From an uncultured Pelagibacteraceae bacterium (GTDB lineage Bacteria; Pseudomonadota; Alphaproteobacteria; Pelagibacterales; Pelagibacteraceae): 64,000 bases of DNA. Each line of letters starts with the position of its first letter. Within the stretch, counting starts at the first letter, position 1. The stretch covers positions 247,803 through 311,802 of the forward strand of contig CACDEB010000001.1 in the NCBI GenBank assembly GCA_902551755.1, read 5' to 3'. Under the pieces are notes generated by a model, which was not told the origin of the DNA, made no database searches, and worked only from the letters and a program-made list of their open reading frames with translations. This document shows positions 46,420 to 49,614 of the stretch, one piece after another. The position numbers and the translations under genes are program-made.

Positions 46420-46475
46420 ATAATAATACTTAACTTATTTATTGACTTTTTGAACCTCTATTATAGTTTCTCACA

Positions 46476-46576
46476 ACTTCCGCAAAAACAGCATTTTGCG
46501 GTGTCTTTGGAAACAAAGAGATCGACACCAGTCAGCGAGGGTTCGCCCACTGGTGCGATTGCTGCTGGAAGAAATT
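46476..46576 (+). promoter_or_regulatory. Structured 5' leader of ffh (candidate cis-regulatory RNA)
   Basis: This region is much richer in G+C than its surroundings and lies directly before ffh. I see three hairpins: an 8-bp stem 46480-46487/46494-46501 with loop ACAGCA; a stem 46502-46505/46524-46527 with an inner CTTTG-GAAA-CAAAG; and a stem 46527-46532/46549-46554 topped by GGG-TTCG-CCC. The loop CAGCA (46489-46493) can pair with TGCTG (46560-46564), and CTTCC (46477-46481) is complementary to the ribosome binding site GGAAG (46567-46571). These pairings compete with the first hairpin. This arrangement suggests a translation-control switch or an SRP-related RNA. Confidence 0.65.
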
Positions 46577-47935
46577 ATGTTTGAAAATTTGACAAATAAA
46601 TTCGAGGGAATACTCGATACATTTAAAAAGGCGCCATCCCTAAATGAAAAACAGGTTGATGAGGGTCTTAGGCTTATTAGACAAGCTTTACTAGAAGCAG
46701 ATGTATCGCTAGAGGTAGTTAAAGACTTTGTAACAAAAGTTAAACCAAAATTATTAGGAAAAGAAATAATAAGATCCACAGCTCCAGGACAAATGGTTAT
46801 TAAAATTGTTCACGATGAGCTTGTTTCATTTTTAGGTGATAGCAATCAAGAAATTAATTTAAAGTCCAATCCACCGGTAACAATAATGATGGTTGGTTTA
46901 CAAGGTTCAGGAAAAACAACCACAACTGCAAAACTCTCAAAATTTTTAGAAAAAAATAATAAGAAAAAAATTATGATGGTAAGTTTAGATATTTATAGAC
47001 CAGCTGCTCAGGAACAACTAAAAATTTTGGGTGATCAAAATAATATCCAAACCTTGCCAGTGATAAAAGATCAAATTCCAGCTGACATTTGCAGAAGAGC
47101 CCTATCTGCAGCTAATTTAAATGGCTCTGATGTAATTATTTTTGATACCGCTGGAAGAACTCAAATAGATCTTCAGATGATGTCTGAGATAAAACAAATT
47201 GAAGAAGTAATTAAACCAACAGAGACTATACTTGTTGCGGACTCATTAACTGGACAAGTAGCAGCGAGTGTTGCAAAAGAATTTTCCAATACAGTAAAGG
47301 TTACTGGGATAATATTAACGCGAGCTGACGGTGATGGTAGAGGTGGAGCTGCATTGAGCATGAAACATATTGCCAATGTTCCAATTAAATTTTTAGGTAT
47401 TGGGGAAAAAATAGAAAATTTTGAAAGTTTTCATCCTGATAGAATTGCTAACAGAATTTTAGGAATGGGGGATATTGTATCTCTTGTTGAAAAAGCAGCT
47501 GACGAAATTGATGAAGAAAAACTTAAAAAAACTGAAGAGAGTTTAAGGAAAGGTCAGTTTTCTTTAGAAGATTATCTTTCTCAATTAAGACAAATGAAAA
47601 AAATGGGAGGACTAGAGGGCGTGATGTCTTTTTTGCCTGGAGTTTCAAAAATAAAATCGCAAATGGACCAAGCTGGTGTTGACGAAAAAATAATTACACA
47701 AAATGAAGCGGTAATACTTTCAATGACTAAAAAAGAAAGAGAAAATCCAAAAATTATCGATGGTTCAAGAAAAAAAAGAATTGCTAATGGCTCTGGAACA
47801 GATATTGCCACTATCAATAAATTGTTAAAACAATTTAAAATGATGTCTGACATGATGAAAAAGATGTCAAAAGGAAATACAAAAGGCTTAATGGAAAAAG
47901 GAATTCCACCTGAGCTATTCAATCAACTTAAATAA
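46577..47935 (+). CDS. ffh: Signal recognition particle protein Ffh
   Basis: Ffh is the SRP GTPase that binds 4.5S RNA and nascent membrane proteins. The protein (452 residues) begins [17 protein letters not shown] and has the N domain, GTP-binding [41 protein letters not shown] and [15 protein letters not shown], and a methionine-rich M domain near the C-terminus ([12 protein letters not shown]). I chose ATG at 46577 because it is where the family starts; the frame is also open upstream, but that part is the structured leader. rpsP follows after 13 bases. Confidence 0.97.
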
Positions 47936-47948
47936 AAAGGAGAAACAT

Positions 47949-48374
47949 ATGTTAAAGTTAAGATTATCAATGGGAGGAACAAAAAAAAGACCAGTTTATA
48001 AAATTGTGGTTGCAGACAGTAGATTCCCAAGAGATGGGAGATTTATAGAAAAATTAGGTTTTTTTAATCCTCTAATGCCAAAAGAAAAAAAGGAAAGAGT
48101 TGGATTGCAGCCAGAAAGAATAAAGTACTGGCTTAGCCAAGGAGCAAAGCCGACAACTAGAGTTGCTCGATTACTTGGAGAAAATAATTTAATGGAAATG
48201 CCTAAACCAGGAAATAATCCAAATAAAGCTGTTCCAAAAAAAGATAGAAAGAAAGACTCGTCTGATGCACCAAAAGAAGAAAAGAAAGCGGATGCACCTA
48301 AGGAAGAGAAAAAAACTGAAGCACCAAAAGCAGAAAAGAAAGCAGAGGCCCCTAAGGAAGAGAAGAAAAAATAA
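47949..48374 (+). CDS. rpsP: 30S ribosomal protein S16 with repetitive C-terminal tail
   Basis: The first 80 or so residues are S16: [40 protein letters not shown] and the [17 protein letters not shown] end. Residues from about 97 to 141 are an additional tail of Lys, Glu, Ala and Pro, with four copies of a nine-residue unit (APKEEKKAD-like) from residue 107. S16 is usually about 80-90 residues. A ribosome binding site AAGGAG precedes the ATG. trmD follows 2 bases later, without the rimM gene that often sits between them. Confidence 0.97.
48267..48371 (+). repeat. 27-bp tandem coding repeat in the rpsP tail
   Basis: Three full and one near-full copies of a 27-base unit encode AP-K-E/A-E-K-K-A/T-D/E. 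The bases differ slightly between copies while the peptide pattern is kept, which suggests selection on the protein rather than fresh slippage alone. Confidence 0.8.
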
Positions 48375-48376
48375 CT

Positions 48377-49063
48377 ATGTTTCAAGCGAAAATTTTTACT
48401 TTGTATCCTGAATATTTTCCAGGACCTTTCGAAATAGGTATTTGCAAAAAAGCTTTTGAAAAAAAGCTTTGGGATTTAAAACTTATAAATATTAGGGATT
48501 ACGCAGATGATAAACATAAAACTGTTGATGATACTCCATATGGCGGTGGTGTAGGCATGTTAATGAGACCAGATGTAGTAGCAAAATCTTTGGACGCAAA
48601 TTTGGATGAAAAAGAAACAGTTTATTATCTAACACCAAGAGGTAAAATTTTTAATCAAGATATTGCAAAGGATATTGTTAAAAAAAATAAAGTTAATATT
48701 TTATGTGGGCACTTCGAGGGAGTTGATCAACGAGTTCTAGACTCTAGAAATGTAGAGGAGATAAGTATAGGTGACTTTATCCTTTCTGGAGGAGAGATGG
48801 CTTCTTTTATTGTTTTAGACACAGTTTTAAGATTAGTACCTGGAGTGTTAGGAAATCTAAATTCTACAAAAGATGAAAGTTTTGAAAATGGGCTTTTAGA
48901 GTATCCACAATATACCAAACCTCAAATATGGGAGAAATTAAGTGTTCCTGACATACTTTTATCTGGAGATCATAACAAAATTAAAAGCTGGCGTTTGTCA
49001 CAATCTGAGGCTATAACACGGCACCGAAGACCTGATTTATGGCAAAAATATAAAAAGGATTAA
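48377..49063 (+). CDS. trmD: tRNA (guanine-N1)-methyltransferase
   Basis: TrmD methylates G37 of tRNAs with S-adenosylmethionine using a trefoil-knot fold. The 228-residue sequence has [46 protein letters not shown] and the SAM knot [15 protein letters not shown]...[15 protein letters not shown], which are diagnostic. rplS follows, so the cluster is rpsP-trmD-rplS. Confidence 0.97.
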
Positions 49064-49080
49064 AATTGCAAAATTTAAAC

Positions 49081-49614
49081 ATGAAAAATATTGAAGACAT
49101 AAATAAAGCAAATGTTAAAAAAATTTCAGCTGAAAAAAAACTCCCAGAGTTTTTTCCAGGAGATATTATAAAAGTTGGTGTTAAAATTACTGAAGGAAAA
49201 AGAGATAGAATTCAGTATTTTGAGGGTGTTTGCATAGCAAAGAAAAATAGAGACTTAAATTCATCCTTTACAGTTAGAAAAATTTCTTTTGGAGAAGGTG
49301 TTGAAAGAACTTTTGCACTTTATAGTCCAATAGTTGATACAATCAAAGTTATAAGATCTGGTAAAGTAAGACGTGCAAAATTATACTATTTAAGAGAAAG
49401 AACCGGTAAATCAGCAAGAATTGCAGAAAAGATAAAAAAGAAAATTGGTATTGATATTGAGGCCAAACCTGAGCAGGTTACAGAAGAAAATGTGTTACCA
49501 GCAACAGAACAAAAGAATACTGAGGAAAAAACCGAGACAAAAGTCGCTGAGACACCCAAAAAACTTGAAGAGAAAAAAGAAGATAGTAAGATTTCTACTG
49601 AATTAAAAAAATAA
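49081..49614 (+). CDS. rplS: 50S ribosomal protein L19 with charged C-terminal extension
   Basis: The L19 core (about 115 residues) is recognisable from [34 protein letters not shown] and [20 protein letters not shown]-like segments. Beyond residue 120 there is an additional Glu/Lys/Thr-rich tail of about 55 residues, similar in style to the S16 tail. I chose ATG at 49081 because family members start there. A TTG at 49066 in the same frame has an AAGGA site (49055-49059) at good distance, so the longer start by 5 residues is possible. Confidence 0.95.

Follow-up and report, generated by a model that had tools for sequence, protein, structure and literature searches.

We propose that the structured leader in front of ffh in this SAR11 genome is the leader of the ribosomal protein S16 operon, a reading to which we give a probability of about 0.55 on comparative evidence. 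The leader is a member of a known RNA family, RF01793 (ffh RNA). It probably serves S16 rather than Ffh, because a family of genomes in which no signal recognition particle (SRP) was detected keeps the motif directly before rpsP. We put at roughly even odds the wider statement that the orphan ffh RNA is an S16-binding leader of an alphaproteobacterial rpsP operon that draws in ffh, and also that the free-living marine PS1 clade has lost the whole SRP, a natural deletion. The S16 reading depends on few evolutionary events, namely those of a single lineage lacking SRP and of a single genome with a rearrangement. The motif itself is conserved, covaries, stays linked to rpsP and persists where Ffh is not found.

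The window, that is, the whole stretch of 64,000 nucleotides analysed, carries dapF and ftsY on its minus strand and a Pfam-confirmed run of four genes on its plus strand: ffh (46577..47935, ATG at 46577; an SRP54-type GTPase with M domain; PF00448, 232 bits; PF02978, 108 bits), rpsP (47949..48374; ribosomal protein S16, the proposed ligand, with a charged C-terminal tail; PF00886, 93.9 bits), trmD (48377..49063; PF01746, 181 bits) and rplS (49066..49614; ribosomal protein L19; PF01245, 152 bits). trmD begins 3 nt past the rpsP end; therefore, no rimM lies between rpsP and trmD in the window. The S16 tail is long, repetitive and charged/Ala/Pro-rich both in SAR11 (about 48240-48371 in the window) and in the PS1-clade family f42 (loci L148 and L167). 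The leader at 46476-46576 has a G+C content of 49.5% vs 31.0% for the window, where 149 of the 63,899 101-nt stretches are equally rich, and the segment 46460-46590 folds at -46.1 vs -29 ± 3.25 kcal/mol for shuffled sequences (z -5.26; 0/200 shuffles as stable). Thus, the G+C-rich, folded leader before ffh described in the sequence-only reading is borne out by composition and by the shuffled-fold comparison.

A promoter-like block (TTGACT ... TATAGT, 46442..46467, plus strand) was recognized by eye from SAR11 leaders and is, by eye, almost invariant in SAR11 f1; the transcript would start at about 46474. A consensus promoter scan gave no site at 46442..46467, where the spacer is 14 nt. Several SAR11 f2 leaders carry boxes resembling TTGACA-17-TAATTT (by eye). 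At the other end of the leader, a ribosome-binding-site-like GGAAG occupies 46567..46571 on the plus strand. Two other candidates were set aside. An in-frame upstream reading frame from TTG 46496 is open for at least 27 codons in 41% of the SAR11 leaders (140, counting duplicates), with a median of 16. A downstream UGC..UG element is a loose pattern in raw counts (29/75, 60/72, 10/20 and 8/12), for which we make no claim.

Three hairpins lie on the plus strand where the sequence-only reading had placed them. They were scored in an alignment of 74 distinct SAR11 leaders, drawn from 94 SAR11 references with 20 f2 leaders excluded. P1 (46480..46501; CCGCAAAA/TTTTGCGG, loop ACAGCA) is paired in 95.9% of cells in this alignment, with both-side changes at 1/6 pairs, and is additionally flagged as terminator-like. 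P2 (46504..46519; TCTTTG/CAAAGA), with possible outer pairs GGT/ATC at 46500-46502 and 46521-46523 (plus strand), is paired in 99.8% of cells, with both-side changes at 4/6 pairs, each in just 2-3 sequences. Tested as six pairs in this register, P2 is found in 20/20 SAR11 f2 leaders (null 0.11), 51% of 68 other alphaproteobacteria (null 0.15), 8% of 75 SAR11 f1 leaders (null 0.06) and 0/12 f42 sequences (null 0.10); by this six-pair test, P2 is unproved in f42. The GAAA cap noted earlier stands as the P2 loop; the TTCG cap does not, since the P3 loop is GGGT (46539-46542) and TCGC is the 3' stem strand.

P3 (46526..46555, plus strand; CACCAGT/ACTGGTG and GCGA/TCGC) is the core of the ffh motif and contains a C·C mismatch (46533/46548) next to an A·C position (46534/46547). 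A descriptor of this hairpin has a single match in the window, with both strands searched. P3 is paired in 100% of cells in the 74 SAR11 leaders. Among 82 alphaproteobacterial sequences, PS1-clade members included, double changes occur at 10/12 scored pairs, and the covariation score is 0.489 vs 0.167 ± 0.010 for shuffles, a control that does not correct for relatedness. This alignment comprises 82 of 88 references, the six excluded being those with no C·C core (L199-L202, L237 and L255), and takes in only sequences free of N; it includes only 8 hand-picked SAR11 leaders, and most of its loci were recruited by the RF01793 model itself. L199-L202 were also excluded from the class-wide counts of P2 and of the A·C position, and L035 and L204 were dropped from the hairpin counts, as the finder matched the wrong place; in L035, the motif is beyond the 260 nt of upstream sequence used. 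The facing cytosines are C in 82/82 of the aligned alphaproteobacteria; among the 74 SAR11 leaders, 73 have C at one of the two positions and all 74 at the other. The position beside them is A·C in 135/175 sequences; another 19 have C-G, G·U or U-A there, and 8/12 f42 sequences have A·A. When this position is scored as a pair, 66 of the 82 sequences leave it unpaired. Extending P3 by GATCG/CGATT was rejected as a general feature: the five added pairs account for the unpaired cells and show little covariation. The extended helix as a whole is 96.0% paired in SAR11, and the extension is absent in f42 by eye; we take it as lineage-specific. In the acetic acid bacteria Gluconobacter/Neokomagataea (L199-L202, L237), a hairpin resembling P3 without the C·C core precedes ffh; Meyer et al. 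2009 (PMC2704228) gave no ffh motif for Rhodospirillales.

The Rfam model RF01793 matches 46511..46563 on the plus strand over its full length (model 1-52; 58.3 bits, gathering 35, E 1.6e-8), and a scan of the window gave nothing else over cut-off except one tRNA. This match supports the statement of the sequence-only reading that structured ffh leaders had been noted before in marine sequences. The leader scores over the gathering threshold, has the bulged covarying hairpin with its bulge cytosines and lies before ffh; the last is not true of the f42 members, where the motif lies before rpsP. According to Meyer et al. (PMC2704228), the motif is widespread in Alphaproteobacteria, precedes ffh in nearly all examples and was published without a function, cis-regulation being a guess. 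Another view of the family is that it is a processed or self-standing small RNA that shares the promoter of the operon by chance. The Rfam type of RF01793 is Gene; sRNA, detection in metatranscriptomic small RNA is cited by Meyer et al. (PMC2704228), and two further sources list it, one among Bartonella sRNAs as ffH leader RNA and the other in a Mesorhizobium table. We consider this improbable, as the position 5' of the operon stays constant through the loss of ffh in f42.

The sequence-only reading went further and proposed a feedback in which Ffh or 4.5S RNA may control the translation of ffh by a two-state switch hiding the ribosome site. The complementarities that it invoked, CTTCC (46477-46481) with GGAAG (46567-46571) and CAGCA with TGCTG, are present in the window sequence. 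In the SAR11 alignment, P1-P3 proved conserved, and excess covariation of the long-range CAGCA/TGCTG pairing was not seen: it is 39.2% or 49.7% paired depending on the register, and its covariation score is matched by 135 and 422 of 500 shuffles in the two registers. CAGCA occurs in 23/74 SAR11 leaders, TGCTG in 56/74, and both in 22/74. The conservation of CTTCC/GGAAG was judged by GGAAG alone, which lies just 5' of the start codon in 3/74 leaders. With no excess covariation on one side and so rare a GGAAG on the other, the switch is not supported. The other identity considered for the leader, an SRP-type RNA, is rejected: RF00169 has no match over its cut-off in the window, and a separate 4.5S RNA candidate lies elsewhere in the genome (G000:C1:69475-69573, locus L001; CAGG/AGCA core). 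This SAR11 candidate scores 38.6 bits vs the RF00169 cut-off of 40, so annotation by cut-off alone would miss it.

The gene order bears on this feedback as well. ffh is the first searched gene after the motif in 57 of the 60 class loci that were fetched with flanks (one ffh truncated, L156), which speaks for Ffh or 4.5S RNA as the ligand and is a point against S16, as outside f42 the motif is nearly always before ffh. The other three loci (L144, L148 and L167) have no ffh after the motif, and all three belong to f42.

Family f42, the PS1 clade, is represented by 18 genomes (G183, G289, G370, G438, G500 and G531-G543), 6 of them with completeness of 90% or more and contamination of 5% or less, and none single-contig. 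The SRP54 GTPase family, which scores >230 bits on both the Ffh and the FtsY of the window, is over cut-off in 0/18 f42 genomes (controls 14/14); one genome, G533, has a weak 20.5-bit match. The Ffh M domain was found in 0/5 f42 genomes drawn and is present in 365/387 alphaproteobacteria, and the window's Ffh as a query gave no match in the same 5/5 genomes, a search without a positive control. 4.5S RNA (RF00169) was found in 0/18 (controls 11/14); this is the weakest of the three negatives, because RF00169 scores even the SAR11 gene below cut-off. On these searches, the PS1 clade appears to be without the whole SRP (Ffh, FtsY and 4.5S RNA), probably by one loss event. Within the open-licence literature, we found no report on the PS1 clade and the SRP, or on loss of ffh, ftsY or ffs.

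The motif remains in 14/18 f42 genomes, exactly the 14 in which S16 was found, and rpsP directly follows it in all 14 loci, with no ffh between. At L167, the motif stands divergent from dapF and is followed by rpsP, rimM, trmD, rplS, leuC, leuD and leuB (dapF, rpsP, trmD and rplS identified by similarity search, the remaining genes named by eye). In the 12 distinct sequences from f42, pairing of P3 is 100%, and 2/11 pairs are compensated; therefore, selection seems to continue after SRP loss. That a motif with compensated changes persists in genomes whose searches gave no Ffh, FtsY or 4.5S RNA makes it unlikely that Ffh or 4.5S RNA generally exerts the control, and together with the poor conservation of the switch pairs, we rate the feedback as very unlikely.

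In one rearranged genome, trmD and rplS have come apart from the motif. This is G382 (completeness 100%, in 3 contigs), where the motif is followed by ffh, rpsP and rimM, then by two opposite-strand genes (bestrophin-like and methyltransferase) and then by trmD, and rplS lies 2.03 Mb from the motif, probably through one rearrangement. Here 285 nt separate the motif from ffh, and by eye a small reading frame may lie in this interval. Since no ffh was found in f42, G382 has trmD and rplS apart and the window's unit has no rimM, only rpsP is common to all. The motif thus stays with rpsP through the loss or displacement of its other neighbours, in few independent events. It is worth asking whether L19, or TrmD or RimM, could be the ligand: rplS, trmD and often rimM stand in the same unit as the motif, and Firmicutes and Flavobacteria have a known L19 leader, according to PMC7247131. 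G382 keeps the motif with rplS far away and trmD beyond the two opposite-strand genes, and the window's unit has no rimM; these proteins are very improbable ligands. What is found in these cases is a conserved structured RNA 5' of a unit holding rpsP, as expected of a ribosomal protein leader, with co-transcription presumed.

Outside f42, further genomes have S16 and no detected Ffh M domain. Among alphaproteobacteria at least 90% complete, these are G204, G385, G452 (f63 g68) and G238 (f96), and likewise G187 (f46), G255, G339 (f113) and G201 (f60); from the M-domain search, which was the one applied, further SRP losses or a diverged Ffh are possible. In 7 of 8 S16 loci from non-f42 genomes without a detected M domain, there is no convincing motif before rpsP, and in six of the seven the stricter finder sees no C·C hairpin over a distance of 250 nt. 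L315 has a C·C hairpin whose outer stem is 5 bp long and which lacks the GCG/CGC core. At L304, the descriptor matches about 280 nt upstream in G+C-rich sequence, a match that looks like chance. In G201, a P3-like hairpin (L317, 1390-1419) precedes rpsP, and no ffh was seen over 1.5 kb of upstream sequence. It has the C·C mismatch and one bulged base, and is a weak witness, as the descriptor, which tolerates one bulged base (control 1/5000 simple shuffles), was written after seeing the sequence; the stricter finder and Rfam do not see it, and the fold of the region is unremarkable (z -1.43). Leaders of this type often, though not necessarily, resemble the site of their protein in rRNA. A comparison with rRNA gave no convincing 16S look-alike: the best strand pair shares 11/16 letters, in the 3' part of 16S, in a comparison where 3201/5801 bases read N, the 23S stretch among them, and where the shuffle control is invalid.

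RF01793 matches 114/150 relatives and, at E 1e-3, 112/387 class genomes, 86 of them over cut-off, with one match per matching genome at E 1e-3 among relatives, class and f42. The 275/387 alphaproteobacteria without a match at E 1e-3 suggest that S16 probably can do without the motif; the matches likely undercount it, as the searches used strict filters and missed weaker copies. An example is G150 (7% contamination), with two ffh starts that each carry the motif: the copy at a contig end scores 34.5 bits, and the copy before ffh-rpsP on another contig scores 28.4 bits and is absent from the class search. S16 is on the contig of the motif in 60/63 motif genomes tested (63 of the 112 matched). 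The three exceptions are G150 and G288, in both of which the contig breaks off at the motif, and G337, a bin without S16 in which the motif precedes a truncated ffh (L156). Apparent unlinking of rpsP or rplS in G150, G288, G306, G386, G490, G409 and G337 was attributed to assembly breaks or mixed bins and left unused, because a contig terminates at or close to the motif, rpsP or rplS. In SAR11, several contigs stop about 1.7-1.8 kb 3' of the motif, near the ffh end or in rpsP.

We infer the ligand, its binding, and the sign and mechanism of control from these comparisons, as follows. The leader would be the 5'-untranslated regulatory RNA of an ffh–rpsP–(rimM)–trmD–rplS operon, with P3 and its C·C mismatch as the core. 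Most likely, S16 in excess over 16S rRNA binds P3, and the bound S16 would lower the expression of its own operon. P3 ends 20–29 nt from the start codon in SAR11 f1 leaders, and S16 on P3 could block 30S entry there. The distance is 17–126 nt in the other alphaproteobacteria (non-SAR11, non-f42), so the output step may differ among them. The non-autogenous control of this operon in E. coli counts against this reading. An autogenous S16 leader would explain why P3 covaries, why its C·C core is kept and why the motif stays with rpsP. Less probably, the leader is read by a factor from outside the operon (a protein, metabolite, RNase or chaperone), with P3 setting how well the operon mRNA is translated or how stable it is. 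Many binders would suit a small hairpin whose C·C mismatch is fixed, and the variable distance outside SAR11 and f42 would suit such a factor; however, one operon and one match per matching genome are typical of autogenous leaders and less of a general regulator.

The element is known in kind, and what would be new is the f42 motif before rpsP in genomes that yielded no Ffh, FtsY or 4.5S RNA. If S16 is the ligand, one RNA ties the supply of the SRP protein to ribosome assembly in SAR11 and many other alphaproteobacteria. If the marine family is indeed without SRP, it lets inner-membrane protein targeting be studied without Ffh, FtsY and 4.5S RNA. RF01793 was named after ffh and published in 2009 without a function, and a 2024 review (PMC10931766) states that nothing is known on how this operon is regulated.

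Among known systems, the leader is closest to RF01793 itself, with a full-length match, a place before ffh and one bulged hairpin with conserved bulge cytosines. The RF01793 model leaves its 5' part unpaired, and here P1 and P2 are added for SAR11; its bulge proves to consist of a C·C mismatch and a mostly A·C position; and beyond its description, there is now a lineage with the motif before rpsP and no ffh found. The bacterial small SRP RNA (RF00169) has a superficial likeness, a CAG in an internal loop seen by eye, but it differs in having no over-cut-off match in the window and its own candidate elsewhere in the genome. The L19 leader of Firmicutes and Flavobacteria is likewise a ribosomal protein leader, and rplS is in the window's unit; unlike it, the motif is unlinked from L19 in G382, and the window has no L19-leader Rfam match. 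Our search of the open-licence literature found no assignment of the ffh motif to S16. The S16 leader proposed in Flavobacteria in 2020, as described in PMC7247131, has S16 as the proposed ligand and precedes rpsP, usually with rimM; it comes from another phylum and is likened here by gene context, and unlike it, the unit in most alphaproteobacteria examined has ffh first.
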